Below are positions 274 through 63,419 of a stretch of 64,000 nucleotides of DNA, in pieces (position 1 is the stretch's first letter; each line of letters begins with the position of its first letter). The DNA comes from Levilactobacillus mulengensis (GTDB taxonomy: Bacteria > Bacillota > Bacilli > Lactobacillales > Lactobacillaceae), in NCBI RefSeq assembly GCF_003946045.1, contig NZ_RHNW01000002.1, forward strand, positions 62,001 through 126,000. The letters run 5' to 3'. The translations under genes and the position numbers were made by a program. The notes beneath the pieces were generated by a model, which was given only the letters and a program-made list of their open reading frames with translations, did no database searches and was not told where the DNA came from.

Positions 274-870
274 ATGATGAAAAACGAAGATAGAGTATTC
301 GAGACGTTTCTACGGCAATATCGGTCAATCTTTCGGGTGTTGATCAATGCGGCCGAACAGATTACCAGTCAGTATTCAGTGAGTTTCGAACAATATTTAC
401 TGTTGAAACAGATTCATGAACAACGCAACATTACGTTGAGTGAACTGGCGGATTCCACCCGGACCACCCGTTCCGCAGCGGCGCGGAAGTTACGGGCTTT
501 ACTGTTAGATGGCTTCGTGGAACAAGAAGCCAAGATGGACGATCGGCGGGTCAAGTACCTGCGCCTGACCGCCAAGGGGGCTAACGTAGAGCATGACATC
601 CGGCAAGCCTTTCTGCAGAGCGCTACGACCTGGGAAGAAATTCCTAGCAACTTGACCGGCGAAGACATTAACCAGTTCTTTACGCAGTATCAGCAGAACA
701 TTGCGATTTGGGACCGGACGCGGCCTAAGTTCCGGCGCCCCGTTTTTACTTTGGTTGCACCTCAGCCAAGACCATCGACACAGCCGGACACCTTGGCGCG
801 ACCCTGGTCACTCCCACGACTGGCCCATTTTCACCAGCCCTGCGGCTCACACTTGTTTAACCCGGGTTAG
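274..870 (+). CDS. MarR-family transcriptional regulator with a repeat-derived C-terminal tail
   Basis: Winged-helix DNA-binding regulator of the MarR family. Residues about 25-110 hold the helix-turn-helix region (LSELADSTRTTRSAAARKL) and the wing with the DDRR signature (KMDDRRVKYLRLT). The start is placed at 274 (or the next codon, 277) because GGGGGAGG at 261-268 sits at proper spacing. An in-frame TTG at 259 lies upstream of this site and is unlikely. MarR proteins are usually about 140-160 residues. Here the family-like part ends near residue 155, and the last 40 or so residues (from about 743) are translated from a minus-strand copy of the structured repeat, which also supplies the stop codon. 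The target is unknown. The gene stands alone upstream of pepO. Confidence 0.85.
   Translation: MMKNEDRVFETFLRQYRSIFRVLINAAEQITSQYSVSFEQYLLLKQIHEQRNITLSELADSTRTTRSAAARKLRALLLDGFVEQEAKMDDRRVKYLRLTAKGANVEHDIRQAFLQSATTWEEIPSNLTGEDINQFFTQYQQNIAIWDRTRPKFRRPVFTLVAPQPRPSTQPDTLARPWSLPRLAHFHQPCGSHLFNPG
743..862 (-). repeat. Structured repeat, class B, truncated (copy 1)
   Basis: Read on the minus strand it begins with the family end (GGGTTAAACAAGTGTGAGCC), continues with GCAGGGCTGGTGAAAATGGG, GTGACCAG and CTGTGTCGATGG, then breaks off at GAGGTGCAACC. The right half of the element is missing. It overlaps the 3' end of the MarR gene and encodes its last residues. Confidence 0.8.
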
Positions 871-924
871 TCGTTGGCATCAGCGATTGCTGGTTGTGTC
901 TCTGCTTGGTTGATTGCCATTTTC

Positions 925-1040
925 ACTTTGGTTGCACCTTAGCCAAGACTACACACAGCTAAACATTCTGCCACAATTATGATTATTTTCATGACCGACC
1001 CAGTTTTTCCAGCCCTGCGGCTTACACTTGTTTAACCCGA
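925..1040 (-). repeat. Structured repeat, class B, decayed tandem duplicate (copy 2)
   Basis: Minus-strand fragment with the same left end (GCCGCAGGGCTGG), a damaged middle, and the same breakpoint sequence GGTGCAACCAAAGT as copy 1. The shared breakpoint and shared flank (GCCAACGACTAAC) show that copies 1 and 2 arose by tandem duplication after the truncation. The rest of the gap up to pepO (1041-1424) shows no gene or family element that I can recognise. Confidence 0.7.
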
Positions 1041-1424
1041 GTTAGTCGTTGGCATCGCAGATTGTCGTTTATGTTTCTGACTCGTGGTTTCTGGGGGCAA
1101 CTGAGATTCAACCCAAACCACCAGCCAAAGTCAACAATCGCCAGAACACTCGTTGGCATTGGTCATTTTCCACCTAGCCCTTTTCGGCTACTGACATTTT
1201 CACCGTAATTGTTTCAAGCTTCGACTATTTTCACCCACTGACGGTCTTCATCGTCGGTCCGTTTTACACCCAGTTTTACTTAAGTCTGGGAGACCTTTTA
1301 TCGCTCTCAGGCTTATTTTTATGGGTTTCTTAGCCATTATGAGAAATTCATGATAAAACAGTTTCCTTTTGTGCGTGAAAGGGTTAACCTGTTCATAACA
1401 AATAGTTTTAAGGAGGATTTCTGT

Positions 1425-3383
1425 ATGCGACTTGATAATTATTCGTCCAACCAAACCCTGCCAACCATGGCTAGTGGCTTCCCGGTGGATACTGCTAAAC
1501 TGACTGACGACCTGTACGACGCGGTCAACGGCAAGTGGGCCGAACAGGCGACCATTCCTGGGGACCACTCCTCGACTGGTGGCTTCATGGACCTGGTCGA
1601 CAACATTGAACACACCCTGATGAGCGACTTCGACGACCTGTTGGCTGGCAAGCTCACCCCGGCTAACCCTGAGATGGCTGAGTTCAAGAAGCTATACACC
1701 TTGGCCCTGGATGCCGACCGTCGCAACAAAGACGGCGTGACCCCGCTCAAGCCTTACCTGGCTAAGATCGAGGGTCTCAAGGACTTCGCTGACCTGAACG
1801 CCCACCTGGTTGAATGGTTCCAAACCGACCTGCCAACCCCCGTCGACATCAGCGTTGACGCCGACATGAAGGACACCAGCAACTACGCCCTTTATTTGGA
1901 CGCCCCAAGCCTGATTCTCCCTGATAAAACTTACTACGAAAAGGATAACCCCGCTGCTAAGCAATTGATGCCCGTCTTCACGACGACCGCCGTCAAGGTC
2001 TTGGCTTTGGCTGGCTATACCGAAGACCGTGCCAAAGAAATCGTGGAACAAGCTAAGGCCTTCGATGCCCAGATTGCGCCACACGTGAAGTCCGCGGAAG
2101 AATCTGCCGACTACGTTAAGATGTACAACCCATTCCCACTGGCCGACGTGGATGCCAAGATCGACAACCTCGATTTGACCAGCACCATCAAGGGCTTGAT
2201 CAACGACGTGCCTGCCCAAGTCATCCTGCCACAACCGACCTACTTTGATGCCGTTAACGACCTCCTGACACCAGCCAACTTTGACAACTTAAAGAGCTGG
2301 ATGTTGGTCAACACGGTTCTCGGCGCCACGGGGGCTTTGACCGAAGACTTCCGTCAAGTCGGTGGCACTTACCGGCGGGCCCTGTCCGGTCAAAAGGAAG
2401 CGCGCTCACCTAAGAAGGCCGCTTACTACCTGGCAACCGGCACATTTGGTCAAGTCGTCGGTGACTACTACGGTCGCAAATACTTTGGTGAAGCTGCCAA
2501 GGCCGACGTCCGTGAAATGGTCCTGAAGATGGCACGCGTTTACCAGAAACGGCTCAAGTCCAACGACTGGCTGAGCACCGCCACCAGTGAAAAAGCCATC
2601 GTCAAGCTGCAGAAGTTAACCATCAAGGTCGGCTACCCAGACGAAATCGACCCACTCTACAGCAAGTTTACGATTGACGAGAACGCCTCACTCTTTGAAA
2701 ACTTGCAAAACATTACCGAAATCATTATCAAAGACCACTTTGGCCACTGGGGTCAACCCGTTGACCGGAAGCGTTGGGACATGAGCGCCAACACCGTCAA
2801 CGCCTACTACTCCCCATCGAACAACGAAATCGTCTTCCCCGCTGCCATCCTGCAGAAGCCATTCTACAGTTTGGACCAACCAAGTAGCGCGAACTACGGG
2901 GGTATCGGGGCCGTCATTGCCCACGAAATTTCTCACGCGTTCGATAACAACGGCTCACAATTCGATGAGTTTGGGAACCTGAACAACTGGTGGACTGACC
3001 AAGATTTGGCCCACTTCAAGGACTTGGCCCAAGCCATGATCGATGAGTTTGACGGCATCGAATTCGCTGGTCAAAAGGTCAACGGGAAGCTGACCGTCTC
3101 CGAAAACATCGCCGACGCCGGTGGGCTGAGCTGTGCCTTAGAGGCCGCCAAATCTTCCAGTGAAATCGACCTGAAAGCGTTCTTCATCAACTGGGCTAAC
3201 GTTTGGCGGATGAAGGCCACGACCGAATACATGCAACTGTTGCTGTCGATTGACGTCCACGCCCCAGCTAAACTGCGGGCTAACGTCCAGGTCAAGAACC
3301 TCGACGACTTCTTCAAGACGTTCGACGTCAAGCCAACGGACAACATGTACCTGGCACCAGACAAACGGGTTAAGATCTGGTAG
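1425..3383 (+). CDS. pepO: M13-family zinc endopeptidase PepO
   Basis: Cytoplasmic oligoendopeptidase of the neprilysin family, 652 residues, which cuts oligopeptides taken up from casein-like sources. The zinc site HEISH is at about residues 500-504. The third ligand and stabilising Asp are in ENIADAGG (Glu about 560). The substrate-binding NAYY motif lies about 40 residues before the zinc site, and there is no signal peptide. The start at 1425 follows AGGAGG (1411-1416). An upstream in-frame start at 1350 lacks a ribosome binding site. The C-terminal end (KRVKIW) is typical of PepO. The stop codon lies a few bases from a structured repeat. It appears monocistronic. Confidence 0.95.
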   Translation: MRLDNYSSNQTLPTMASGFPVDTAKLTDDLYDAVNGKWAEQATIPGDHSSTGGFMDLVDNIEHTLMSDFDDLLAGKLTPANPEMAEFKKLYTLALDADRRNKDGVTPLKPYLAKIEGLKDFADLNAHLVEWFQTDLPTPVDISVDADMKDTSNYALYLDAPSLILPDKTYYEKDNPAAKQLMPVFTTTAVKVLALAGYTEDRAKEIVEQAKAFDAQIAPHVKSAEESADYVKMYNPFPLADVDAKIDNLDLTSTIKGLINDVPAQVILPQPTYFDAVNDLLTPANFDNLKSWMLVNTVLGATGALTEDFRQVGGTYRRALSGQKEARSPKKAAYYLATGTFGQVVGDYYGRKYFGEAAKADVREMVLKMARVYQKRLKSNDWLSTATSEKAIVKLQKLTIKVGYPDEIDPLYSKFTIDENASLFENLQNITEIIIKDHFGHWGQPVDRKRWDMSANTVNAYYSPSNNEIVFPAAILQKPFYSLDQPSSANYGGIGAVIAHEISHAFDNNGSQFDEFGNLNNWWTDQDLAHFKDLAQAMIDEFDGIEFAGQKVNGKLTVSENIADAGGLSCALEAAKSSSEIDLKAFFINWANVWRMKATTEYMQLLLSIDVHAPAKLRANVQVKNLDDFFKTFDVKPTDNMYLAPDKRVKIW

Positions 3384-3389: not shown

Positions 3390-3590
3390 CTAGTCCCTGT
3401 CAGCGCCTGCCGGGCGGTCAAAATAGGACCGGTCCGCTGTGGGCAGGACGGTCGAAGCCAAAGAGCGGTCTTCAACCTTGCTTTGAGCCGCCAAGAACGC
3501 GTCTCAAAGTCACCATTTTCTGAGCAAACCACTCAGAAAATCCCACGGCTAGGCCTATTTTGACCGCCCTCTCGGCTGATACTAGTTTTA
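3390..3590 (-). repeat. Structured repeat, class A variant (copy 3)
   Basis: Minus-strand element. The basal stem is GGGCGGTCAAAATAGG paired with CCTATTTTGACCGCCC, a full replacement of the usual GGGCTGGTGAAAATGGG stem with pairing kept. Hairpin 1 is ATTTTCTGAG/CTCAGAAAAT. CTTTGAGACGCG/CTCAAAG and the AGACCGC hairpin follow. The outer ends include AAACTAGT on the left and ACTAGTTTTA on the right as an inverted repeat. It lies between pepO and the convergent adenosyltransferase gene. Confidence 0.9.
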
Positions 3591-4460: not shown

Positions 4461-4637
4461 AGCCGGAGGTAGCCAGACAGAGCCCCGTGTCGGTGGCCTT
4501 AGCCGAGTGATTTTCTCGGGTTAGGCCACGGCCGAGCTTTGAAACTCACGGTTTGGGTGAGGTTCAAAGTCGCCCTGAAGACCGCTCTTCGGCTTCAGGT
4601 CTGCCCACGGGAGCGGCGTCTGGCTACCGCAGGCGGC
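4461..4637 (+). repeat. Structured repeat, class C (copy 4)
   Basis: Ends are GCCGGAGG and CCGCAGGC. The outer stem is GTAGCCAGAC/GTCTGGCTAC. Inside are CGTGTCGGTGG, a hairpin with a CCGAGTGATTTTCTCGG core, a TTTGAAACTCAC/GTGAGGTTCAAA hairpin, and CTGAAGACCGCTCTTCGGCTTCAG. The TTTGAA/TTCAAA stem is a compensated version of the usual TTTGAG/CTCAAA. Confidence 0.9.
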
Positions 4638-8179: not shown

Positions 8180-8447
8180 CGGGTTAAGCTAGTGTCAGCC
8201 GCAGGGCTGGAAAAACTGGGTCGGTCGTGGGAGTGACCAGAGGCGCGCCAAGGTGACCAGCTGTGTCGATGGTCTTAGTAGAGTGATTTTCTCTGCTTAG
8301 AGCATGGGACAACCTTTGAGACCGCCCCTCAGGCTCAAAGTTGAGGTGGAAGCTCGCTTCTCAGGCTGGAACCGGCCCCACAGCAGGGCACCTTGAGCGC
8401 ACCGCCAGGAACGACCAGCACCACGCCACGGCCCGGCTTTCACAGTC
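8180..8447 (+). repeat. Structured repeat, class B, right end damaged (copy 5)
   Basis: Begins GGGTTAAGCTAGTGTCAGCC, then GCAGGGCTGG, GTGACCAGAGGCGCGCC, CTGTGTCGATGG, a TAGAG...CTCT hairpin, CTTTGAGACCG/CTCAAAG, CCCCACAG and GGCACCTTGAGCGC. The closing arm of the basal stem is missing or scrambled (CCCGGCTTTCACAG). A complete class A copy follows directly. Confidence 0.88.
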
Positions 8448-8460: not shown

Positions 8461-9697
<1,237 letters not shown>

Positions 9698-9731: not shown

Positions 9732-9922
9732 CCGCCTACGGTAGATTAGGGACGCTTCACCCTGTGGGACCCGGCTAAAGCCTGAGGTGCGGTCTTTAGC
9801 CTCGGTTTGAAGCCTAGCCAAAACCGCTAGTCTCCAAACACGGTCCGTGCTGTAAGGCTGGGAAAAGTTCACCCAGTCTAACACCACTATCACAGGGTTC
9901 GGTCCCTATCTACCTCCGGCTC
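9732..9922 (-). repeat. Structured repeat, class C (copy 7)
   Basis: On the minus strand it begins GCCGGAGGTAGATAGGGAC and ends with a GTCCCTAATCTACC arm and CGTAGGC. The core carries a CTGTGATAGTGGTGTTAGAC variant, a CTGGG/CCCAG hairpin, TTTGGAGACTAGCGG with its TTCAAA partner, and AAAGACCGCACCTCAGGCTTT. Confidence 0.85.
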
Positions 9923-10311
9923 CGTCAGCGAACCCAGGCTTCAGTTACCACGGCAACGTTTCCTTCTACAATTATTCAGTGGTTGCTGGCAATCCATAAG
10001 ACATTTCATGATAGTTTTTTCTACCATAAAGATAGACTACATGATGTCAGCACCTACACAACAACGTATGTACCAGCTAAAACAGCAGTCGCGGTTCAAA
10101 TAAACATATTAATAACCAACCAATTACCGCAACCACTAGTTCAACCAGTGAATTCTTTTGAAACGTCACATGGGGTTGAGCCGTCCAGCATGGCCAAAAC
10201 CACACCGAACCACAACAACCCCATGGTTTGATTATTTAATTGATAGGAACTATTACACAGCTTAGCAGGCCACAGTACGTGGCATCCAGATCTCAGATAC
10301 CACCACAACCA
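9923..10311. other. Intergenic stretch between repeats, no gene recognised
   Basis: About 390 bp rich in CAACC/ACCAC runs between the copy 7 element and the duplicated flank of copies 8 and 9. I see no ORF with a ribosome binding site, no RNA gene and no family core. Confidence 0.35.
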
Positions 10312-10360
10312 ACCCAGCAGCCAAGGCCAACAGCTCAGACCAATTACCCGCAAATCTACG

Positions 10361-10431
10361 GGCTAAACCAGTATGAGCCGCAGGGCTGGGAAAACTGGGC
10401 CGGTCGTGGAAGTGACCAGAGGCGAGCCAAG
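10361..10431 (+). repeat. Structured repeat, class B left fragment (copy 8)
   Basis: Only the left part is present: GGGCTAAACCAGTATGAGCC, GCAGGGCTGGGAAAACTGGG, GTGACCAGAGGCGAGCCAAG, then unrelated sequence. The 5' flank (10312-10360) is repeated nearly exactly before copy 9. Confidence 0.88.
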
Positions 10432-10523
10432 AATAAACGCTCGTCAGTCTAACAACCAGCGGCTTAACCACAGCCACCCAGCAGCCAAGGCCAACAGCTC
10501 AGACCAGTTACCCGCAAATCTAC

Positions 10524-10724
10524 GGGCTAAACCAGTGTGAGCCGCAGGGCTGGTGAAAATGGGCTCAGCCGTGGGAGTTGCCTTAGCGGGTTTCCCGCTT
10601 AGGCAACTGCTATCTTTGAGACGTGGTTTTCCGGCTCAAAGTAAGTCTGGAGACCGCCTTTCGGCTCCAGACGTGCGCCCACAGCGCCACGGCCCATTTT
10701 CACCAGCCCGGAGGCGCTGTCAAC
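10524..10724 (+). repeat. Structured repeat, class A, complete (copy 9)
   Basis: Complete class A element ending GGAGGCGCTGTC. Its 5' flank from 10476 duplicates 10312-10380 at a shift of about 164 bp. Hairpin 1 is GTTGCCTTAGCGGG/CCCGCTTAGGCAAC, and the third hairpin is TCTGGAGACCGCCTTTCGGC with its CTCCAGA partner. It ends 15 bp before the galT stop. Confidence 0.92.
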
Positions 10725-13254: not shown

Positions 13255-13403
13255 CGCCTGCGGTTGTTAGGTATTCCGCTCCTGTGGGGTGTCCCACCGA
13301 AGCCTGAGGTGCGGTCTTCAGTGGCGGTTCAAAGCCTGACCAAGTTCGTCAGTCTTTAAACGCCACCGACACAGGTGCTCCGTACCTAACAACCTCCGGC
13401 TCT
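13255..13403 (-). repeat. Structured repeat, class C (copy 10)
   Basis: Outer stem GGTTGTTAGGTA/TACCTAACAACC, perfect over 12 bp, with ends CCGGAGG and CCGCAGGC on the minus strand. The core has CACCTGTGTCGGTGGCG, AAAGACTGACG/TCAGGCTTT, and CTGAAGACCGCACCTCAGGC. It lies inside the gal operon between galK and galE. The following 13404-13656 shows no gene I can recognise. Confidence 0.9.
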
Positions 13404-13656
13404 GGCAACAACCACTAACCTGCACGCACTCTTTCCATTGCCTGTCTTGGTCAGCCGTTGCGGTTGCCTCGTCGTTAACCATAAAGTTTTGGTGACATGT
13501 GTTTATTTTAAACTTGTTTGTTTTGGGTGTTAAGCTGTTTCGGTTCCTTGGCGGTTGGTAGCCGCAACTATTTCTAGTTTGGCCTTCCCTGCCTCGTTGC
13601 CGAAACGTGGCACTACCGGGCAGCTTGCTAACCGCCCTTCGTATCACTCTTATTTC

Positions 13657-14946: not shown

Positions 14947-15198
14947 CGCCTTACCGGGCGGTCAAAATGAACGTGGTCGCCGCCGTTCCCGGCGGTGAGC
15001 TCAAGGTGCCCTGCTGTGGGGTCGGTTCCAGCCTGAGGTTCGGGCTTCCACCTCAACTTTGAGCCAAAGGGCGGTCTCAAAGTTTGCCCCATGCTCTAAG
15101 TAGAGAAAACCACTCTACTAAGACCATCGACACAGCTGGGCACCTTGGCTCACCTCTGGTCACTGACACAACTGGTTTATTTTCACTGGCCCTGCAGC
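14947..15198 (-). repeat. Structured repeat, class B (copy 11)
   Basis: Minus-strand element with core CTGTGTCGATGGTCTTAGTA, a GTAGAG/CTCTAC hairpin, CTTTGAGACCGCC/CTCAAAG, and CCCCACAGCAGGGCACCTTG pairing with CAAGGTGCCCAGCTGTG. The far end is GCCTTACCGGGCGGTCAAAA, the class A variant type end, so the outer stem looks mosaic. It lies between the galactose permease and galK. Confidence 0.88.
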
Positions 15199-15367: not shown

Positions 15368-15553
15368 AGCCGGAGGTAGCTGATAGCGAATTCTGTGTCA
15401 GTGTTCTTGAAACGAGCACCTTTCTTGGTTCTAGAACACGGGACATGTTGGGAGACTGACGTTCTTTGTCTGGCTCCTAACCGCCTGGACAGACCGCTTC
15501 TCAGGCTTGAGACGGGCCCCACCAGGTGAAGCGGCCCTAACGACCGCAGGCGG
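15368..15553 (+). repeat. Structured repeat, class C, worn outer stem (copy 12)
   Basis: Ends GCCGGAGG and CCGCAGGC are kept, but the outer stem (TAGCTGATAG against CCCTAACGA) no longer pairs. CTGTGTCAGTGTTCTTG, a TTCTAGAACACGGGACA segment and GACAGACCGCTTCTCAGGCT are present. Confidence 0.8.
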
Positions 15554-15639
15554 GAACGCCCAGCAACCTCCCTCCCCCCACGCACACTGGCTAAAAGAAA
15601 AGCCCTAGGAGATTAATCCCCCAGGACTCACATTTAGTC

Positions 15640-17614: not shown

Positions 17615-17917
17615 TATCATAAATCCCTCGTTTTTCACGAAAACGGCCAATCGACCGTTCTGAAAGTTTGTGAAAATGAACAGACGGCCACGAAAATGTC
17701 GGCAACAACCGGTTGTCCTTTCCTCACCGCAATCGTTCCAACCATCATCCCCCACTTCCCCAGCACCAACCGAGTTACTAGCCACGACCAATAACTTCCC
17801 CCAAAGAAAAACAGCCCGCGCCGGCCCCCTCACAGAAGGACCAGTCACAGACTGTTCATGGACAAAGTTATTGAGTTAAATACTCCGACACGGAGAAGTT
17901 AAAGAGCTGATCCGTGT

Positions 17918-18101
17918 GAGTGACCAGAGGCGGGCCAAGTTGGCCAGCTGTGTCGGTGGCCTTGGCTGAGGTTCTTACTCAGCCTAGCCCACGGGACAAC
18001 CTTTGAGACCGACCCTCAGGCTCAAAGTTGAGGTGGAAGACCGCCCCTCAGTCTGAAACCGGCCCCATAGCAGGCCAACTTGAGCCCGCCGCCGGGAACG
18101 G
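17918..18101 (+). repeat. Structured repeat, inner B form (copy 13)
   Basis: Lacks the outer stem and begins GTGACCAGAGGCGGGCCAAG. The inner stem GGGCCAAGTTGGCC pairs with GGCCAACTTGAGCCC. The core has CTGTGTCGGTGGCC, GGCTGAG/CTCAGCC, CTTTGAGACCGACC/CTCAAAG and GAAGACCGCCCC. It ends GCCGCCGGGAACGG, 12 bp from the pgm stop. Confidence 0.9.
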
Positions 18102-18112
18102 AATCGAATCCG

Positions 18113-19882: not shown

Positions 19883-20185
19883 GGGTTAAACTTTGTCGTT
19901 GTCATGGCCTCCGGGATGGTGAAAACTGGGCCGTGACGGTCGCTGTCCGTTCCCGGCGGCGGGCTCAAAACGCCCTGCTGTGGGGTCGGTTCCAGCCTGA
20001 GAAGCTGGCTTCCACCTCGACTTTGAGCCACAGAACGGTCTCAAAGGTCGTCCCATGGACTAAACTGAGAAAACCACTCAGTTAAGACCATCGACACAGC
20101 TGTGCATTTTGCCCCGCCTCTGGTCACTAACACCCACCAAGCCAGGCCATTTTCACCATCCCTGCGGCTGACACGTGTTTAACCC
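19883..20185 (-). repeat. Structured repeat, class B, complete (copy 14)
   Basis: Outer inverted ends GGGTTAAAC and GTTTAACCC. The basal stem is GGGATGGTGAAAA/TTTTCACCATCCC, a compensated C-G to A-T change from the consensus GGGCTGGTGAAAA. The core includes CTGTGTCGATGGTC, CTGAG/CTCAG, CTTTGAGACCG and CCCCACAGCAGGGCG. Confidence 0.92.
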
Positions 20186-20472: not shown

Positions 20473-20656
20473 AGCCGGAGGTGAACAGGTGCGGATGCCT
20501 GTGTCGAGGTTCTTAGGTCGAGCGGCTTCCTTGGCCTTAGAACCTGGGACGCCTTGGAGACTCACGGTCTAGGTGAGGCTCCAAGCGCCCCGGAAGACCG
20601 CACTTCGGCTTCCGGGGTCGCCCCACAGGCAGGAGTCACCTGTTCACCGCAGGCGG
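20473..20656 (+). repeat. Structured repeat, class C, complete (copy 15)
   Basis: Ends GCCGGAGG and CCGCAGGC. The outer stem GGTGAACAGGTG/CACCTGTTCACC is perfect over 12 bp. The core has GCCTGTGTCGAGG, a GTTCTTAGG/CCTTAGAAC hairpin, CTTGGAGACTCAC/CTCCAAG (compensated) and CCGGAAGACCGCACTTCGGC with CTTCCGG. It ends 19 bp before the galM stop. Confidence 0.93.
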
Positions 20657-20674
20657 ACAAGCTTACCGCAACCG

Positions 20675-24854: not shown

Positions 24855-24870
24855 AAATCTGAACACCAGC

Positions 24871-25059
24871 CCGCCTGTGGCTTCCATGGACTACAGCTGC
24901 TGGGGGGAACGGTTCCGGACTGAGGGGCAGTCCTGCACCTCGCTTAGAAACCTCGCCAAAACCGCGAGTTTCCCAAGTCGTCCCGTGGGATAAGGCCGAG
25001 AAAAACGCTCGGTCTAACGCCACCGACACAGCTGCCTCCGTCCCTGACTTCCTCCGGCT
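24871..25059 (-). repeat. Structured repeat, class C (copy 16)
   Basis: Minus-strand ends GCCGGAGG and CCACAGGC, so one base of the usual CCGCAGGC is changed. The core has CAGCTGTGTCGGTGGCG, a GACCGAG...CTCGG hairpin, a CCACGGGACGAC segment, and a GCAGGACTGCCCC in place of AGACCGC. The outer stem is partly worn. Confidence 0.85.
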
Positions 25060-25117
25060 ACGATTGCTGGTCAATCTTAGTTGAAGAGCCTGTTTGCACG
25101 CTCTTCGATAACTAACT

Positions 25118-28101: not shown

Positions 28102-28196
28102 AGTACGGTTCTTTTAGTTAACGTTAATGACAGATTGACTTGCGGTAAAGAGCTTTCTCCAACCACAAACCTAGTGAACATGATAGCTCAATATCA

Positions 28197-28376
28197 GTGA
28201 CCAGAGGCGGATCAAAGCGACCGGCTGTGTCGGTGACCTTGGCTGGAGTCGTTTTCCAGCCTAGTTCGCGGGACGACTTTTGAGACCGGTCTTTGGCTCA
28301 AAATCGAGGTGTAAGCCCGATTCTTAGGCTGGAACCGACCCCATAGCAGGGCGCTTTGAATCCGCCGGCGGGAACG
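28197..28376 (+). repeat. Structured repeat, inner B form (copy 17)
   Basis: GTGACCAGAGGCGG start, CTGTGTCGGTGACC, GGCTGGA/TCCAGCC hairpin, TTTGAGACCGG/CTCAAA, CCCCATAGCAGGGCGC, end CCGGCGGGAACG. No outer stem. It lies just after the pckA stop. Confidence 0.88.
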
Positions 28377-28395
28377 AACCTTATCGACAAACTGG

Positions 28396-33438: not shown

Positions 33439-33620
33439 CGCCAACTCCGGGCAGGTGTTCCCACCCTCTGAGGCACGTCCGAAGCCTGTGAAACGGTCTT
33501 CGAACTTAGGTTTAAGCCTCACAAGAACCGTGAGTCTTAAACCTATCCCCTGCTGTAAGGCCGGAAAAATCACCGGTCTAACACCAGCGACACAGGGTTC
33601 CGCACCTGCCCGGAGTTGGC
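33439..33620 (-). repeat. Structured repeat, class C variant with an 18-bp perfect outer stem (copy 21)
   Basis: Outer arms GCCAACTCCGGGCAGGTG and CACCTGCCCGGAGTTGGC are perfect complements. The core has ACCCTGTGTCGCTGGTG, a GACCGG/CCGG hairpin, AGGTTTAAGACTCACGG with its CTTAAACCT partner (compensated), and CGAAGACCGTTTCACAGGC. The segment from 33640 to 33880 is AT-rich and holds nothing I recognise. Confidence 0.88.
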
Positions 33621-33882: not shown

Positions 33883-34070
33883 GTTAGCCGCAGGGATGGT
33901 GAAAATGAGCTCAGCCGTGGGAGTTGTCTTAGCGGTTTACCGCTTAGACAACTGATATCTTTGAAACGTGCTCCTCAGCGGTTCAAAGTAAGCTCGGAGA
34001 CCGCTCTTTGGCTCCGGGCGTTCGCCCACAGCGTCACGGCTCAGTTTTCACCATCCCGGAGGCGCTGATA
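33883..34070 (+). repeat. Structured repeat, class A, complete (copy 22)
   Basis: Basal stem GGGATGGTGAAAATGAGC against GCTCAGTTTTCACCATCCC, with compensated changes at two places compared with copy 6. Hairpin 1 is GTTGTCTTAGCGG/CCGCTTAGACAAC, also compensated. It ends 30 bp before the AroE-like ribosome binding site. Confidence 0.93.
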
Positions 34071-39173: not shown

Positions 39174-39358
39174 CCGTTCCCGGCGGCGGGCTCAAACTGC
39201 CCTGCTATGGGGCCGGTTCCAGCCAAAGTTCTGGCTTCCACCTCAACTTTGAGCCTGAGAAGCGGTCTCAAAGGTTGTCCCGTGGGCTAGGCTGGAAAAG
39301 AACTCCAGCCAAGACCACCGACACAGCTGGTCAGTTTGGCCCGCCTCTGGTCACTCAC
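39174..39358 (-). repeat. Structured repeat, inner B form (copy 23)
   Basis: Minus-strand element from GTGACCAGAGGCGGGCC to GCCGCCGGGAACG. GGCTGGAG/CTCCAGCC hairpin, CTTTGAGACCGCTT/CTCAAAG, and a CCCCATAGCAGGGC closing arm. No outer stem. Confidence 0.88.
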
Positions 39359-39715
39359 GATTGCGAACCCATTTTCAACCGCGCTTACCACCTCATCCCC
39401 CTCACATAAGTCCATCACGATAAATGACTTATTGTCGACACCTTATTGCGGATCAATAATTAAACAACTGATACCTTTGGACTGTAAATTCCGAGTCACC
39501 GGGACTGCCCGCCTCCGGTTCCAACAGATTGTCCGCTGACCTAGCATGCGCTAAAAGATTTGGTCGTTGACAGTTTGATTGGCGGTAAGGCAACACTGGC
39601 AACTCAAAGCTCCCGGCCTCAACTTATGGTCATTACACAGCTATCGCATTGGAACCATCACCGACCGCGGTAAAAATCTTATTGCCAACACATGGTTGCG
39701 GATTAACTGCAAAAT
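39359..39715. other. Intergenic stretch between repeats, no gene recognised
   Basis: Part of a gene-free kilobase between the 57-residue gene and map. The last 60 bp (ACCGACCGCGGTAAAAATCT onward, from about 39660) are duplicated before copy 25. Nothing else recognised. Confidence 0.35.
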
Positions 39716-39800
39716 TAGTCGGAGGGCTGGGAAAACTGGGCCGGTTGTGGGAGTGACCAGAGGCGGCCAAGGTGCCCGGCTGTGTCGATGGACTTGGCGC
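39716..39800 (+). repeat. Structured repeat, class B left fragment (copy 24)
   Basis: GGAGGGCTGGGAAAACTGGG, GTGACCAGAGGCGGCC, CTGTGTCGATGGACTTGG, then lost. Followed by a degenerate duplicate of its own 5' flank and a full class A copy. Confidence 0.85.
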
Positions 39801-39892: not shown

Positions 39893-40077
39893 GTTAGCCG
39901 CAGGGCTGGTGAAAATGGGCTCAGCCGTGGGAGTTGCCTTAGCGGGTTCCCCGCTTAGGCAACTGCTATCTTTGAGACGTGACCTTCGGCTCAAAGTAAG
40001 TCCGAAGACCGCTCCCCAGGCTTCGGACGTGCGCCCACAGCGCCACGGCCCATTTTCACCAGCCCGGAGGCGATGAC
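39893..40077 (+). repeat. Structured repeat, class A, complete (copy 25)
   Basis: Basal stem GGGCTGGTGAAAATGGG/CCCATTTTCACCAGCCC. Hairpin 1 is GTTGCCTTAGCGGG/CCCGCTTAGGCAAC, and the third hairpin is TCCGAAGACCGC with CTTCGGA. It lies 115 bp upstream of the map start. Confidence 0.92.
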
Positions 40078-41203: not shown

Positions 41204-41306
41204 CGGGCTAAACCAGTGTCAGCCGCAGGGCTGGGAAAACTGGGTCGGTCGTGGAAGTGACCAGAGGCGAGCCAAGGTGACTGGCTGTGTCGATGGCCTT
41301 GCATGT
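41204..41306 (+). repeat. Structured repeat, class B left fragment (copy 26)
   Basis: GGGCTAAACCAGTGTCAGCC start, GTGACCAGAGGCGAGCC, CTGTGTCGATGGCCTTG, then broken off. The flank CTACAAGCCAAGG recurs, diverged, as CTACCACAAGCCAAGCGG before copy 27. Confidence 0.88.
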
Positions 41307-41387
41307 TTACTTAGCTTACGTAGCCGGATAAACTACCACAAGCCAAGCGGAAATCAAGACCAATTAGATAAATAATCATCTATGTCA

Positions 41388-41685
41388 CGGGTTAAACTAG
41401 TGTCAGCCGCAGGGCTGGGAAAACTGGACCGGTCGTGGGAGTGACCAGAGGGGCGCCAAGGTGCCCGGCTGTGTCGATGGCCTTGGCTGGGGTATTTTCC
41501 CAGCCTAGCCCATGGGGCAACCTTTGAGACCGTACCTCAGGCTCAAAGTTGAGGTGGAAGCCCGCTTCTCAGGCTGGAACCGACCCCACAGCAGGGCACC
41601 TTGAGCGCACCGCCGGGAACGGACGCGACCAGGCCCAGTTTTCACCAGCCCGGAGGCGCTGCCAAAAACACTCATTTAACCCAAA
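41388..41685 (+). repeat. Structured repeat, class B, complete (copy 27)
   Basis: One of the fullest class B copies. GGGTTAAACTAGTGTCAGCC start, basal stem GGGCTGGGAAAACTGG against CCCAGTTTTCACCAGCCC, inner stem CCAAGGTGCCCGGCTGTG against CACAGCAGGGCACCTTG, GGCTGGG/CCCAGCC hairpin, CTTTGAGACCG/CTCAAAG. It ends ATTTAACCC, about 10 bp before the menG ribosome binding site. Confidence 0.93.
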
Positions 41686-43312: not shown

Positions 43313-43371
43313 TACTTGTGCCATCCCTTAAAACGTTATGGACCTATTATAACAACAAATGGCCCTAACGC

Positions 43372-46097: not shown

Positions 46098-46378
46098 ACC
46101 CAAACTAGTGTCAGCCGCAGGGCTGGGAAAACTGGGCCGGTCGTGGGAGTGACCAGAGGCGCGCCAAGGTGCCCGGCTGTGTCGATGTTCTTAGCTGAGC
46201 ATTTTTCTCAGCTTAGAACATGGGACACCTTTGAGACCGCACTTCGGCTCAAAGTTGAGGTGGAAGCCCGCCCTTTGGCTGGAACCGGCCCCACAGCAGG
46301 GCGCCTTGAGCGCGCCGCCGGGAACGGACACGACCAGGCCCAGTTTTCACCAGCCCGGAGGCAATCAAAAAACTAGTT
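46098..46378 (+). repeat. Structured repeat, class B, complete (copy 28)
   Basis: Outer ends AAACTAGTGTCAGCC and AAAACTAGTT. Basal stem GGCTGGGAAAACTGGGCC against GGCCCAGTTTTCACCAGCC, inner stem CAAGGTGCCCGGCTGTG/CACAGCAGGGCGCCTTG, hairpin GCTGAG/CTCAGC, CTTTGAGACCG/CTCAAAG. The right end holds the TAG stop codon of the BCCT gene. Confidence 0.94.
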
Positions 46379-49003: not shown

Positions 49004-49181
49004 CCGCCTGCGGCTGGCAGGGACCGCACACCTCTGGGGCACGGGGCAAGCCAAAGCACGGTCTTGCCCCTCGCTGGGTGCCTCGTAACCCCCGAGTCAC
49101 CCAGACGTCCCGTGCCCTAGGCTGAGAAAGAACCTCAGCCAATGCCACCGACACAGGCAGTGATTCCTGCCAGCCTCCGAC
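49004..49181 (-). repeat. Structured repeat, class C (copy 29)
   Basis: Outer stem GGCTGGCAGG/CCTGCCAGCC with CCGCAGGC at one end and CGGAGG at the other. Core GCCTGTGTCGGTGGCA, GGCTGAGG/CCTCAGCC-like hairpin, CTGGGTGACTCGGGGG, and GGCAAGACCGTGCTTTGGC. Confidence 0.9.
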
Positions 49182-49472: not shown

Positions 49473-49683
49473 TGTCAGCCGCAGGGCTGGGAAAACTGGG
49501 CCAGTCGTGGGAGTGACCAGAGGTGAGCCAAGGTGCCCGGCTGTGTCGATGGACTTGGCTGGGGTTCTTTCCCAGCCTAGTTCCATGGGACAACCTTTGA
49601 GACCGTTTCTCAGGCTCAAAGTTGAGGTGGAAGCCCGATTCACAAGCTGGAACCGGCCCCACTTGAGCTCACCACCGGGAACG
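49461..49683 (+). repeat. Structured repeat, class B lacking the right arm (copy 30)
   Basis: Left arm and core are intact (GTGACCAGAGGTGAGCC, CTGTGTCGATGGAC, GGCTGGGG/CCCAGCC, CTTTGAGACCG/CTCAAAG) up to CTCACCACCGGGAACGG. CCCCACAG is damaged and the closing basal arm is absent. Confidence 0.88.
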
Positions 49684-49702
49684 GTAACAATCAGCTTTAT
49701 AT

Positions 49703-49808: not shown

Positions 49809-50010
49809 ATCAGCCGCAGGGCTGGTGAAAATGGACTCAGCCGTGGGAGTTACCTTAGCGGGTTTCCCGCTTAGGTAACTGCTATCTTTGAGACGCGTTC
49901 TTCGGCTCAAAGTAAGTCTGGAGACCGCCTTTCGGCTCCAGACGTGCGCCCACAGCGTCACGGCCCATTTTCACCAGCCCGGAGGCACTGACAACGACCC
50001 ATTTAACCAG
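49796..50010 (+). repeat. Structured repeat, class A, complete (copy 31)
   Basis: Basal stem GGGCTGGTGAAAATGG/CCATTTTCACCAGCCC. Hairpin 1 GTTACCTTAGCGGG/CCCGCTTAGGTAAC is a compensated G-C to A-T change from other A copies. Ends GGAGGCACTGAC...TTTAAC. Confidence 0.93.
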
Positions 50011-52268: not shown

Positions 52269-52283
52269 ACGCGCGTGGCAGCT

Positions 52284-52323
52284 AAAACGTCATCCCCAGC
52301 AATCGCTAGGAATGGCGTTTTTG
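52284..52323 (+). terminator. Terminator hairpin
   Basis: AAAACGTCAT...ATGGCGTTTTTG, 16 bp after the hypothetical gene. Confidence 0.75.
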
Positions 52324-52338
52324 TTTACCTGAAATTAA

Positions 52339-52384
52339 AAGACCCGTTCACCCAACCACGATGGCTGAGGTGAACGGGTCTTGT
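52339..52384. terminator. Second terminator hairpin
   Basis: AAGACCCGTTCACC...GGTGAACGGGTCTT, perfect 14-bp arms, T-rich on one side. Confidence 0.8.
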
Positions 52385-52497
52385 TGTCTTTGTTAGGTTA
52401 ATTATTCGTAAGACACAACGATGACTGTCCCGCAGATAGTCCCCTTGCCCATGATAGACAAGTACAACAGTGAAGACAGTCCCCGCAAGTCCACGAA

Positions 52498-52783
52498 CTA
52501 AACCAGTGTCAGCCGCAGGGCTGGGAAAACTGGGCCGGTCGTGGAAGTGACCAGAGGCGAGCCAAGGTGCCCGGCTGTGTCGATGGTCTTAATAGAGTGA
52601 TTTTCTCTATTTAGAGCATGGGACAACCTTTGAGACCGCACTTTGGCTCAAAGTTGAGGTGTAAGCCCGCTCTTCGGCTGGAACCGGCCCCACAGCAGGG
52701 CTCCTTGAGCTCGCCGGCGGGAACGGACGCGACCAGGCCCAGTTTTCACCAGCCCGGAGGCGCTGTACCAACACCTAGTTTAG
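52498..52783 (+). repeat. Structured repeat, class B, complete (copy 32)
   Basis: CTAAACCAGTGTCAGCC start, CTAGTTTAG end. Basal stem GGCTGGGAAAACTGGGCC/GGCCCAGTTTTCACCAGCC. Hairpin AATAGAG/CTCTATT is a further compensated version. CTTTGAGACCGC/CTCAAAG, AGCCCGCTCTTCGGCT. The right end supplies the TAA stop codon of the cytosine deaminase gene. Confidence 0.94.
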
Positions 52784-55313: not shown

Positions 55314-55349
55314 CGTTTACCCTTTTACATTGCCCGTTGTCATCACTTC

Positions 55350-55537
55350 GCCTGCGGCTGCCAGATAGCTCCGCTCCTGTGGGGCAACCTCCGAAGCCTG
55401 AGAAGCGGTCTTCGGAGGCGCCTTGAAATCTCGCAGAGTCCACGAGCTTCCAAGGTCGTCCCGTGCTGTAAGGCCGAGAAAATTCACTCGGTCTAACACC
55501 ACCGACACAGGGCTACGTATCTGTCCTCCTCCGGCTC
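55350..55537 (-). repeat. Structured repeat, class C (copy 33)
   Basis: Minus strand: GCCGGAGGAGGACAGATACG start, CCGCAGGC end. Core CCCTGTGTCGGTGGTG, GACCGAG...CTCGG hairpin, CCTTGGAAGCTCG, TCCGAAGACCGCTTCTCAGGC with CTTCGGA. The outer stem (ACAGATA against TATCTGG) is partly worn. Confidence 0.88.
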
Positions 55538-55654
55538 CGTTAACAAAACGACCAATGTAAAAGTATCCGCTTCGTGGTCGTATCGTGACCACTAGTCATT
55601 GGTATTCGTGTCTCGACGTCAACTATCAAACATCCATCGGTAAAAGTAATCCTG

Positions 55655-55848
55655 TCCGTTCCCGGCGGCGGATTCAAGACGCTCTGCTGTGGGGACCGGC
55701 GCCAGCCTGAGAAGCGGTCTGGCGCCTCGCCTTGAAACCTCGCAAAGACCGCGAGTTTCCAAGGTCGTCCCGTGCTCTAAACTGAGAAAAGCACTCAGTT
55801 AAGACCACCGACACAGCTGCCCGTATTGATCCGCCTCTGATCACTCAC
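55655..55848 (-). repeat. Structured repeat, inner B form (copy 34)
   Basis: Minus strand from GTGATCAGAGGCGGATC to GCCGCCGGGAACGG. Core CAGCTGTGTCGGTGGTC, ACTGAG/CTCAGT, CTTGGAAACTCGCGG with GAGGTTTCAAG, and GCGCCAGACCGCTTCTCAGGC. No outer stem. Confidence 0.88.
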
Positions 55849-56035
55849 AACGACCATGACATCTTCACAGTCGTGGAGCCAAACATTAGCCGCCAAATAT
55901 GCGGTTGTCACAAATGTATCCGCCTTGCTTGGCAGTCCTCTTCCATAATCTTATGCATATCACAATGTTAAGTTCAAAACCAAGCCACTGACATTGGTTT
56001 AGCCAATCCAAACTAAACTGGTGCTAGGTGGCTGT

Positions 56036-56164: not shown

Positions 56165-56375
56165 ATGTCAGTGGAGCTGGGGGCTGGTGGGGTGGCGAGG
56201 CCTGTGTCGGTGGTGTTGGCTGAGGTTCTTTCTCAGCCTACAGCACGGATGACCTTTGAGACTTGCGCCTTTCAAGGCTCAAAGGCAAGATACAAGACCG
56301 CTTCTCAGGCTTGTATCGGTCCCCTCAGGTGCTGTCCACCCCACCAACCGCAAGCGCAACAACCATTCCATAACA
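56165..56375 (+). repeat. Structured repeat, class C variant (copy 36)
   Basis: Outer stem GGTGGGGTGG/CCACCCCACC. Core CCTGTGTCGGTGGTG, GGCTGAGG...CTCAGCC, CCTTTGAGACTTGCG with GGCTCAAAGG, and AAGACCGCTTCTCAGGCTT. The ends are GGGGGCTGG and AACCGCAAGC, not the usual pair. Confidence 0.88.
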
Positions 56376-56424
56376 ACACACTTTAACCAATCCAAGCCAC
56401 ACCGGTGTTAGGCGGTTGTTGCCG

Positions 56425-56608
56425 CGGAGCCGGAGGTGGTCAGATGCGAAGGCTGTGTCGGTGGTGTTGGCTGAGGTTTTTTCTCAGCCTACAGCACGGG
56501 ATGACCTTTAAGACTTGCGCCCCTCAAGGCTTAAAGGCAAGCTGGCAGACCGCCCCCTGGCTGGAAGCGGTCCCCACAGCCTGAAGTGTCTGAACCACCG
56601 CAGGCGAA
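56425..56608 (+). repeat. Structured repeat, class C (copy 37)
   Basis: Ends GCCGGAGG and CCGCAGGC. Outer stem GGTGGTCAGA against TCTGAACCACC with a slipped base. GGCTGTGTCGGTGGTG, GGCTGAGG/CCTCAGCC-type hairpin, CCTTTAAGACTTGCGCC with GGCTTAAAGG (compensated G-C to A-T), and GCAGACCGCCCCCTGGCTGG. Ends 15 bp before the small ORF stop. Confidence 0.92.
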
Positions 56609-58492: not shown

Positions 58493-58611
58493 AGTTGCAT
58501 CCTTAGATTCAGAGAAGCAGACTACCCGGCCTAACCCAATCCGTGACTTGAAAACACCACAGTCACCCACCAGTCAAGCACAAGAATACCGAAAATGGGC
58601 GGCTAGTATCA

Positions 58612-58800
58612 GTGACCAGAGGCGGATCAAGTTGGTCAGCTGTGTCGGTGGTGTTGGTCGGGGGGACTTCCCGACCTAGACCACGGGACGACCTTGGAAA
58701 CTCGCGCACTTCAGCGAGGTTTCAAGGCGAGCTGGAAGACCGCCCCTTAGGCTGGAAGCGGTCCCCACAGCAGGGCAACTTGAATCCGCCGCCGGGAACG
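58612..58800 (+). repeat. Structured repeat, inner B form (copy 38)
   Basis: GTGACCAGAGGCGGATC start, CAGCTGTGTCGGTGGTG, GGTCGGG/CCCGACC hairpin (compensated), CCTTGGAAACTCGCG with GAGGTTTCAAGG, GGAAGACCGCCCC, CCCCACAGCAGGGC, GCCGCCGGGAACG end. Confidence 0.9.
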
Positions 58801-58870
58801 ACCAGCTATCTGCCACCCATTTTCGGCCAAAAGAAAAACGCCTAGCTGAAACACTAGACGTTACCCAAAA

Positions 58871-60073: not shown

Positions 60074-60107
60074 AAAAAAACCACTAACCGAAGTCAGTGG
60101 TTTTTTA
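60074..60107 (-). terminator. Terminator of the cold shock gene
   Basis: AAAACCACT...AGTGGTTTTTT hairpin 27 bp after the csp stop on the minus strand. Confidence 0.85.
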
Positions 60108-60133
60108 CTAAGCACGATTTAGGCTAATGTAAA

Positions 60134-60337
60134 TTAGTCAACTACCGTAACGTTAGCAGCTTGTGGGCCACGGTCGCCTTGTTCTACATCAAGGGATACG
60201 TGTTGGCCTTCTTCAAGAGTCTTGAAGCCTTCGCTGTTGATAGCGGAGAAGTGAACGAAAACGTCTGAGCCGTTTTCCAAAGTGATGAAGCCGTAACCTT
60301 TATCAGCGTTGAACCATTTAACAGTACCTTGTTCCAT
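60134..60337 (-). CDS. cspA: Cold shock protein
   Basis: 67-residue single-domain RNA chaperone. RNP1 KGYGFITL and RNP2 VFVHFSAI are present, after [18 protein letters not shown]. The start follows TGGAGG; an in-frame extension to 60406 is rejected. About 190 bp upstream is gene-free and could form a regulatory leader, as is common for csp genes. Confidence 0.96.
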
Positions 60338-60524
60338 AAGAATGAAACCTCCATGCGCATAGCGCAATAATATTTGCATTTGAAAGCTGGGGTAAAAAGG
60401 AGCCATTCTTATAAGAACGTCGAGCCTTTACTTCCGAACCATAAATACATTAGTCATAGAATAACAGGTATTCCCGAGAATAGCAAATGCAAAGTGTCGA
60501 AATCGGCAAACTTTTTAGCGACCC

Positions 60525-61139
60525 CTATAAAGCATTCACTGTTAACCATGTTTGTGCCGCAAGCACCTCATGCGGCGTCAGCTGGTGAGTTCCGCCCGTT
60601 ATTTCCATCGTCGTTTCCGCCTGAATCTCGTCAAAACTTTTTAAAACTTTTTTTACCGTGGCGACCGTTACCAGCGGATCATGTTCCCCCGCCGACAGCC
60701 AAGCCCGATAACCGGGTCGCTGGACTGGCAATGCCACCGGTAACTGCAACGGATGGAAGAGCAACGCCGCCTGCCCCGGAATTTGCCCCGTTAGGACCCC
60801 GTAGGCAGCCATGGCCGCACCATTTGAATAACCGACCACCACCAGCCGCTCAGCGTCCCAGCGGTGCTCCTGGCAGACCTGTTGGACCTGTTCACCCAGC
60901 CAACTGGCTTCTTCAGCGATTTGTGCCGGGTTCACGGGTCCCGCCGCCGTTTGCGAATAATATTGCCGTTGCGCGCCAACACCCTGCCGGCCCGCAATCG
61001 TGATCAATGGACTCTGCGGAGCCAATCGCCGACCAAACGTCAGCATTTCCTGGTTCGTCCCGCCAGTTCCCTGTAAGAGCAAAAGCGGGGCTGCCGTATT
61101 GGCGCCAGGCATCGTTTCGATTAAATCCGTTTCCGCCAT
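60525..61139 (-). CDS. Alpha/beta hydrolase (carboxylesterase/phospholipase type)
   Basis: 204 residues. The nucleophile elbow is VGYSNGA (Ser near 104), with the Asp in GEHDPLV and the His in GGTHQLT completing the triad. The oxyanion segment is LLQGTGG. This is the short dienelactone-hydrolase-like/carboxylesterase group. Substrate unknown. It follows the 106-residue gene by 11 bp and is likely in the same operon. Confidence 0.92.
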   Translation of the reverse strand: MAETDLIETMPGANTAAPLLLLQGTGGTNQEMLTFGRRLAPQSPLITIAGRQGVGAQRQYYSQTAAGPVNPAQIAEEASWLGEQVQQVCQEHRWDAERLVVVGYSNGAAMAAYGVLTGQIPGQAALLFHPLQLPVALPVQRPGYRAWLSAGEHDPLVTVATVKKVLKSFDEIQAETTMEITGGTHQLTPHEVLAAQTWLTVNAL

Positions 61140-62699: not shown

Positions 62700-63021
62700 C
62701 AGCTGACCCCTTCTTTCGTTCTAATTTGCGAAACCTTTTTCCTATTCTAGCGAATTCGCCCACCCGGAACAAGTAAAGCTTGACGTCCCCCCACGACTCC
62801 CCTATCATCAGTGAAGAATGACAACATAGGTAGAAACCCCGACAAGGTTGACTGCCGAGTGAGGCAATGATTGTTGATTCTCGATAGGTCATCGTCTAAG
62901 ACTTGATTACTTAGTTAAGTCGCAAATTGAAACAATTGATTGCTATACTAATTCAGTTAACTATACCTAAGCCAATTAATAAGGTTCTAAACATTACGAC
63001 AACAAATACACAAAACTGAAC
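62700..63021. other. Intergenic region, no gene recognised
   Basis: AT-rich stretch between mutY and the first repeat fragment. Its last 20 bp (ACACAAAACTGAACGGGC) recur before copy 40. No promoter, RNA gene or credible ORF seen. Confidence 0.35.
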
Positions 63022-63115
63022 GGGCTAACCCCATCTAAGCCGCAGGGCTGGTGAAAATGGGCCAGTCGCGGTCAGTGTTAGTGACCAGCGGCGCGCCAAG
63101 GTGCCCGACTGTGAC
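63022..63115 (+). repeat. Structured repeat, hybrid left fragment (copy 39)
   Basis: Left arm is class A (GCAGGGCTGGTGAAAATGGG) but the inside is class B (GTGACCAGCGGCGCGCCAAG, GGTGCCCGACTGTG). It breaks off after CTGTGACAAGTG. Confidence 0.82.
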
Positions 63116-63202
63116 AAGTGCACCGGCTCTGACTTAGCAGTAACTATCTAAAGGACAAATTGAACCAGCAACCCCCACAGAAAACAAACACACAAAGCTG
63201 AA

Positions 63203-63419
63203 CGGGCTAAACTCGTGTCAGCCGCAGGGCTGGTGAAAATGGGCTCAGCCGTGGGAGTTGCCTTAGCGGGTTCCCCGCTTAGGCAACTGCTATCTTTGAG
63301 ACGTGATCTTCGGCTCAAAGTAAGTCTGGAGACCGCCTTTCGGCTCCAGACGTGCGCCCACAGCGCCACGGCCCATTTTCACCAGCCCGGAGGCGCTGTA
63401 AGACGCGCAGTTTAACCCG
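63203..63419 (+). repeat. Structured repeat, class A, complete (copy 40)
   Basis: GGGCTAAACTCGTGTCAGCC start, GTTTAACCC end. Basal stem GGGCTGGTGAAAATGGG/CCCATTTTCACCAGCCC, hairpin 1 GTTGCCTTAGCGGG/CCCGCTTAGGCAAC, third hairpin TCTGGAGACCGCC with CTCCAGA. It lies 33 bp before the OppA-like start. Confidence 0.93.

Follow-up and report, generated by a model that had tools for sequence, protein, structure and literature searches.

A large, structured intergenic repeat of Levilactobacillus mulengensis and other Lactobacillaceae with a fixed orientation toward genes

The DNA analyzed here, referred to as the window, is a 64,000-base stretch of the 3.11-Mb genome of Levilactobacillus mulengensis (NZ_RHNW01000002.1, positions 62,001-126,000), in which many of the spaces between genes, including galT and a galactokinase-like gene, are occupied by copies of a large structured repeat. 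Repeats were detected first through exact seeds and then with three profile models that were built on window copies and refined iteratively over the window and a further 400 kb of the same genome. The profile searches delineated 38 non-redundant elements that account for 6,781 of the 64,000 bases (10.6%), in agreement with a first-pass annotation that had reported about 40 copies making up more than 10% of the window; the view of that annotation that they form one large structured intergenic family is likewise supported. Two main subtypes were recognized, A of about 250 nt and B of about 175 nt plus outer repeats, along with additional divergent copies denoted C, and the CTTAG, CTTTGAG/CTCAAAG, and AGACCGC hairpins are common to all three. 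A basal repeat enclosing three hairpins, previously ascribed to every copy, is present in most of them, the exceptions being five 5' partial copies of subtype A (757-846, minus strand; 10382-10431, 39723-39798, 41227-41334, and 63044-63120, all plus) and the partial or diverged C copy at 13255-13420 (minus), which aligns only to the later part of the C profile.

The other subtype A copies lie at 8198-8414 (+), 14956-15197 (-, upstream of the galactokinase-like gene), 17902-18102 (+, 11 bp from the stop of a minus-strand gene), 19907-20168 (-), 28172-28378 (+), 39174-39380 (-), 41406-41657 (+), 46114-46362 (+), 49478-49684 (+), 52512-52761 (+), 55639-55868 (-), and 58591-58801 (+). Subtype B is found at 3410-3576 (-, 27 bp past the stop of a plus-strand gene), 8478-8652 (+, with the outer repeat GGGTTAAGCTAG/CTAGCTTAACCC), 10541-10715 (+, at the 3' end of galT, with a far flank resembling the inverted galT end), 30183-30347 (-), 31956-32128 (+), 33887-34063 (+), 39897-40071 (+), 49813-49986 (+), and 63221-63394 (+). 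The remaining C copies are located at 4483-4636 (+), 9735-9897 (-, upstream of a LacI-family regulator gene), 15391-15558 (+), 20474-20659 (+), 24870-25061 (-), 30580-30746 (+), 33446-33603 (-, forming a divergent pair with the B copy at 33887), 49004-49179 (-), 55349-55536 (-), 56194-56390 (+), and 56430-56604 (+). All were retrieved by profile search, and those starting at 8198, 10382, 49478, 49813, 63044, and 63221 by the seeds as well. Tandem pairs, such as 8198 with 8478 and 49478 with 49813, begin with an A copy, either full or reduced to its 5' part, and end with a gene-proximal copy that is usually B; in several pairs, the same locus-specific upstream flank is repeated. For instance, the upstream flank of the partial copy at 10382 repeats that of 10541, and the upstream flanks of 49478 and 49813 are similar.

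Read from 5' to 3', the plus strand of the element starts with the outer repeat CGGGYTAAACYAGTGTCAGCC and the basal stem GGGCTGGTGAAAATGGGC and continues into three hairpins, the first composed of two CTTAG halves with a T-T mismatch, the second of CTTTGAG/CTCAAAG followed by an A-G mismatch (both mismatches were assigned by eye), and the third containing AGACCGC and GGCT; the 3' part consists of the returning basal arm, GGAGGC, and the outer repeat GTTTAACCCG. In subtype A, the stem between the basal arm and the hairpins is longer. Single copies of subtypes B and A yielded folding z scores of -8.3 and -7.6, respectively. In MAFFT alignments, compensated changes were observed at 23 of the 32 predicted pairs among 53 A/C cores and at 34 of the 57 predicted pairs among 31 B copies. 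A set of 145 copies, drawn from 864 kb of genome sequence, has 97.6% of its cells paired, compared with 79.7% in shuffles, and its covariation score (0.476 vs. 0.163) exceeds those of all 500 shuffles, with every slid register scoring far lower than the true one. Together with the single-copy z scores, this covariation indicates that the fold is not due to chance; the 145-copy count leans toward structure because its rows were fitted to model R1, and the changes are not independent because all copies are paralogues from one genome. A model without significantly covarying pairs would have refuted the first-pass annotation; many covarying pairs were found instead.

The strand on which the structure is constrained can be assessed from the imperfect pairs. 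Counted on the plus strand, G.U cells outnumber A.C cells in each of the four reference folds (101:28, 295:71, 87:20, and 76:20, that is, 3.6-4.4 to 1) and still do so at 1.6-2.8 to 1 once pairs in which such cells are common are excluded (65:28, 69:42, 38:20, and 55:20), with neither set of counts corrected for kinship. The ratio is similar at sites where the mRNA of the gene would carry the plus strand (53:17) and at those where it would carry the minus strand (77:28), from which we infer that the constraint acts on the element's own plus strand, not on whichever mRNA happens to contain it. These observations bear on the possibility that RNA plays no role and that template switching keeps the DNA hairpins complementary while extending the outer arms. 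Such palindrome dynamics would be compatible with the 766 of 4,465 cells changed on both sides among the 145 copies, with the low share of G.U (about 4% in three reference folds and 13% in the fourth), and with the locus-specific extension of the arms, but would not explain the excess of G.U over A.C or the conservation of unpaired hairpin positions, and we consider them improbable as the sole cause.

The most conspicuous property of the family is its orientation. The polarity was scored in 132 elements that are 120 nt or longer and lie between two called genes. In 121 of them, a gene is closer to the 3' end than to the 5' end, with median distances of 72 bp and 412 bp, respectively; 70 of the 121 face the 3' end of a gene and 51 the 5' end. 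The gene calls are our own open reading frame (ORF) picks, with ORFs shorter than 300 codons that overlap an element dropped, so that the absence of elements inside genes is partly by construction. The same polarity was obtained in a fixed-position sample (44 of 52), among elements without a divergent partner (69 of 79), and in three genomes from two other genera (G082, G130, and G071), where the 3' end points toward the nearer gene in all 15 copies with both neighbors called (16 copies were inspected, and at locus L165 the margin is just 8 bp). Moreover, neighbors in opposite orientation within 800 bp of each other are exclusively divergent, in 25 of 25 cases in the L. mulengensis genome, 24 of 24 in named gal loci, and 28 of 28 in stretches from five species, the latter two sets partly overlapping; same-orientation neighbors within this distance number 19, 5, and 7, respectively.

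A simple scan for terminators covered 62 gene 3' ends that have an element no more than 200 bp away. It predicted one in the 380 bp beyond the element at 38 of these ends and one between the stop codon and the element at 10 (both at 2 and neither at 16), the stretch beyond the element being much longer than the one before it. In the same scan, 29 of 200 shuffled 380-mers were positive, and genes without an element had a predicted terminator within 120 bp in 161 of 370 cases. Because the predicted terminators lie mostly beyond the element rather than between it and the stop codon, the element appears to reside within the transcript, often between the coding sequence and its predicted terminator. 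The element could, then, be a directional device of untranslated regions (UTRs) domesticated by the host, such as a one-way terminator, attenuator, or ribonuclease block, whose orientation is maintained by selection; transcription out of a gene would meet its minus strand, and transcription into a gene its plus strand. Such a device would account for the polarity, including that of elements without divergent partners and of copies in the other genera, for the exclusively divergent arrangement of opposite neighbors, for the placement of the predicted terminators, and for the sites common to close species. However, the fold is constrained in the plus strand at both kinds of site, the element is lacking at the same gene in many relatives, and no U-run follows the stem on either strand in the copies inspected; a domesticated device seems unlikely. 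About equally unlikely is the more elaborate proposal that Levilactobacillus genes are bracketed by mirrored copies, with the plus strand leading in and the minus strand leading out, that serve as genome-wide one-way UTR devices and spread by a process that copies the gene-side flank in inverted form. Some host function is possible.

An inverted flank of this kind is seen at the gal locus, where GalT is 100% identical to its counterparts in L. lanxiensis and L. wangkuiensis (GalT search) and the aligned pieces of the region are about 90-97% identical to those of the same two species. Beyond the element at galT, about 45 bp of the galT end recur as an imperfect inverted copy, discerned by eye, in L. 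lanxiensis, L. wangkuiensis, and L. cerevisiae. Loci L040 and L042 also carry an element in this galT-galR gap, and the site is empty in at least 19 other Levilactobacillus loci, with the next ORF starting 15-114 bp on. Similarly, at 31699-32179, where two relatives have a clean empty site, the empty sequences join directly at the place occupied in the window by the element at 31956 and an inverted gene-side flank (by eye). When flanks were compared with swapped pairs, 11 of 38 loci reached the 99th percentile in two of six settings. In an anchored test that included the outer repeats, 18 of 56 loci exceeded the 95th percentile and 9 of 56 the 99th; excess matching was found in every 10-nt bin from 11 to 60 (z of 3.0 to 5.1) and none at 61-70, and the signal passed the 95th percentile at 9 of 25 gene 3' ends and 4 of 29 gene 5' ends. 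We take the inverted flank signal as real and confined to a part of the loci. Inverted gene copies longer than 60 bp were considered as well: a blast search of flanks of up to 600-700 bp around elements of at least 120 nt returned 25 elements with a match, and this candidate was rejected because, as read from the positions, the strongest matches are inverted neighboring elements. A separate inverted repeat, ATGGGGTTG ... CAACCCCAT, is present between galT and the next gene (within 9898-10540 in the window) and recurs in several Levilactobacillus loci with and without the element (L035-L038, L051, L052).

A 400-kb sample, with positions picked blind to matches on contigs already known to carry some, contained 56 elements, or 0.14 per kb, roughly four times fewer than the 0.59 per kb of the window; by extrapolation, the whole genome would hold roughly 430 copies. 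The density is uneven along the chromosome, and 10 of 40 stretches of 20 kb are free of elements (L004, L009, L015, L019, L145, L146, L150, L154, L159, and L161). With model R1, at least 150 matches were obtained in the L. mulengensis genome, all 150 scored among 1,165 candidates being positive. The model matched 34 of 35 Levilactobacillus genomes, with at least 97 matches in each of 18, and a search across Lactobacillaceae, which the first-pass annotation had proposed, was positive in 77 of 301 genomes, which represent 11 of the 40 genera sampled. In an order-level sample, 16 of 295 genomes were positive, including four outside the family with 1-3 matches each (E of 8e-4 to 2.2e-8). The 80 named gal loci yielded matches (E <= 0.01) in Levilactobacillus, Lactiplantibacillus, Secundilactobacillus, Companilactobacillus, and some metagenome assemblies.

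An Rfam scan of the window, also proposed earlier, returned only cspA and tRNA and no family matching the element, and permissive Rfam scans of two stretches that contain three elements yielded nothing but matches far under the gathering scores. The cspA thermoregulator match (96.5 bits; 60074-60568, minus strand) overlaps a short minus-strand ORF. In the literature, mostly open-access and judged by titles and abstract openings, no paper describing the repeat was found. We found no name for the family, with BOX, Lac-1, and Lacto-int considered from the respective papers rather than by sequence.

Comparison with relatives over 20 element-bearing gaps of the window, counted by eye, informs on the age of the sites. 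Of the gaps that could be resolved, the share also occupied by an element falls from 19 of 20 (L. lanxiensis) and 18 of 18 (L. wangkuiensis) through 12 of 15 (L. cerevisiae) to 7 of 15 (L. brevis CD0817) and 3 of 14 (L. angrenensis), leaving 8 of 15 gaps in L. brevis CD0817 and 11 of 14 in L. angrenensis without one. At the site of the copy at 33887, three relatives have a gap of 54-106 bp without an element. Where the window has an element and L. brevis or L. angrenensis has none, the gap is about 190-940 bp longer in the window. Element-free gaps are often conserved in length (for example, 460, 460, 460, 460, 450, and 453 bp), and several vary, such as 43313-43371 (59, 59, 59, 60, 306, and 655). 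Given that the same gaps are occupied in L. lanxiensis and L. wangkuiensis, the sites appear to be mostly old within the close group, with changing contents. Indeed, of 27 sites that two or all three of the close species have in common, 8 differ in best-scoring subtype (by eye). The clearest exchange is at 52269-52779, where each species has a single copy, which is B in L. lanxiensis but A in both the window and L. wangkuiensis; at site 40987, the gene-proximal copy, which in the window is the A copy at 41406, is A, A, and B in the three species, with B in L. lanxiensis. Most of the other differing sites contain tandem copies, where gain or loss is also possible. Some 3' partial copies exist in relatives, and the five partial A copies of the window retain the 5' end. 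The fixed polarity, the subtypes, the partial copies, the inverted flank, and the exchanged subtypes are all new relative to the first-pass annotation.

Evidence on movement comes also from another genus. Genome G082 contains a near-identical two-hairpin cousin family with ends GTTAGTGTAAAGTTTCTC and GAGAAAAAGTTGACACTTAC and terminal repeats of 18-20 bp, represented by six copies with both ends, L167, L170, L173, and L186, plus L169 and L172 with a weaker 5' end. By eye, direct repeats of 9 bp flank L167 (perfect, 9/9) and L170 (8/9), and these are the best evidence for DNA transposition. The 3' end of L170 lies beyond an inserted transposase gene (1733-2749, minus strand) with HTH_38 and rve domains, the latter just under the cut-off, which we take to be of IS30 type; the possibility that L170 is an autonomous copy was rejected, as the gene looks like a later insertion in the 3' end of the cousin element. 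The outer repeats CGGGYTAAACYAG / GTTTAACCCG are recognizable at both ends in 23 of the 120 two-armed copies from all loci collected, some of which were counted twice. In G130 and G071, young copies (L174-L178, L184) have in common a long upstream sequence that contains a TATAAT-like box and additional hairpins, and the unit in these genomes may accordingly be larger and have its own promoter.

Consistent with the first-pass annotation, which saw no transposase or partner gene, none of the partner enzymes searched for, namely, RVT_1 (PF00078) reverse transcriptase, Y1_Tnp, and IS256-type transposase (PF00872), is supported by the genome searches. Y1_Tnp is found in 23 of the 35 Levilactobacillus genomes and does not track the element, the genomes without it including G002, G003, and G029, each with at least 97 scored matches. 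A search with PF00872 returned a single domain match in L. mulengensis and none in G082, and of the 22 places in G082 that fit a pattern for the cousin end, none was recognized as an insertion sequence (IS). Integron attachment sites were rejected because the core-like motifs in the outer repeats are in the wrong order, as judged by eye. RVT_1 is relevant to an RNA-templated mode of spread, akin to a bacterial short interspersed element, in which reverse transcription of the 3' end of the plus-strand RNA would be primed at gene edges and the cDNA would snap back. This would fit the plus-strand constraint, the mostly gene-side 3' ends, and the inverted flank, which snap-back predicts. Yet RVT_1 is absent from the L. 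mulengensis genome and present in only 10 of 35 genomes of the genus, the five window partials keep the 5' end where truncated reverse transcription predicts the 3' end, although 3' partials do exist in relatives, and the 9-bp repeats of the two cousin copies fit DNA transposition, making RNA-templated spread very improbable.

The reading that we favor, and consider probable, is that these elements are non-autonomous, chromosome-borne mobile repeats of Lactobacillaceae, of the kind represented by BOX and miniature inverted-repeat transposable elements (MITEs), with an unusually large conserved fold. This reading rests on the high copy number, the terminal and basal inverted repeats enclosing three hairpins with covarying pairs, the placement in gaps between genes with the 3' end toward the gene and, at gene 3' ends, often ahead of a predicted terminator, the empty sites of relatives, and the occurrence of different subtypes at a single site among close species. 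An enzyme acting in trans would once have mobilized the element as DNA, as suggested by the duplications in the cousin family of another genus. Today, the elements would reside in UTRs and be mostly old, their sites being mostly inherited and copies being replaced by other copies through shared arms. For the loci that have the inverted gene-side flank, fold-back repair is the best explanation: a broken end would fold on the element's own arms and copy about 50 nt of the neighboring strand; the reverse event would overwrite the end of the gene and be lost.

Several results weigh against this interpretation as non-autonomous mobile repeats. Simple insertion does not predict the strict polarity. 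No direct repeats were seen by eye at L169, L172, L173, and L186, none of at least 5 bp was found at the 23 Levilactobacillus copies with recognizable outer repeats, and no transposase was found whose ends match. A single A copy and a single B copy had no blastn match among 72,556 plasmid and 50,697 phage records, an absence that would be unexpected for an active mobile element. With regard to the inverted flank, a swapped-pair test run under six settings put 18, 11, 11, 8, 0, and 0 of the 38 loci at the 99th percentile or higher; outer repeats were part of the first setting, and the arms in the last two were 120 and 200 nt long. In the anchored test restricted to bases 31-90, 13 of 56 loci exceeded the 95th percentile (2.8 expected) and just 2 of 56 the 99th; with 150-nt arms started 25-40 bp out, 1 of 97 loci passed, and an ungapped 15-base flank test gave no excess. 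Mean GC is 0.58 in the elements and 0.46 in the spacers of divergent pairs. Finally, an automatic filter for exchange recovered replaced interiors at just 2 of 24 sites (56 orthologous pairs with 3' flanks more than 80% identical, of which 4 have an element identity below 0.75 and 2 another subtype), although this filter excludes A/B pairs because the A profile ends within the basal arm.

Among known systems, MITEs are typically AT-rich, and REP/BIME (repetitive extragenic palindromes and their mosaics) are structured intergenic repeats often located at gene 3' ends. The present element is far larger than REP/BIME with the associated Y1 transposase RAYT, and Y1_Tnp is absent in 12 of the 35 genomes of its genus. 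The earlier statement that the family lies beyond classical REP, ERIC, and BOX elements holds for size and number but not for kind, in which it resembles pneumococcal BOX. Croucher et al. 2011 (PMC3049150) regard BOX as a parasite that probably affects genes in the same transcript, and the features described there, namely, structured, intergenic, high-copy, and modular repeats with paired closing ends, old insertions, and little movement, are shared by the present family. The present family differs in its extrapolated number of several hundred copies, its own three-hairpin fold, its distribution over 11 of 40 sampled Lactobacillaceae genera, its 3' ends directed to genes, the inverted flank at part of the loci, and the in-place subtype exchange; the comparison with BOX and its boxA, boxB, and boxC modules was made by description. 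As in the MITEs described in PMC10969869 and PMC2229807, the element is short and non-coding, with terminal inverted repeats and a stable fold, and two cousin copies have 9-bp repeats; it differs in being GC-rich, with no target duplication seen in Levilactobacillus and no IS with the same ends found. Lac-1, a stem-loop family of Lactobacillus johnsonii with a 231-nt consensus and class code G in PMC2267715, is also a lactobacillus repeat family, set apart here by description, the code G being read as genic. A passage of Weinberg 2010 (PMC2864571) lists Lactobacillales motifs mostly with Rfam accessions, Lacto-int being without one there.

The family would add a large structured repeat, with several hundred copies in L. 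mulengensis by extrapolation, to a group of food bacteria. The element accounts for much of the difference in intergenic length between the compared species, and expression studies in these bacteria should expect a repeat inside many UTRs. The strict orientation toward genes and the inverted flank copies provide testable clues to how repeats insert and persist.

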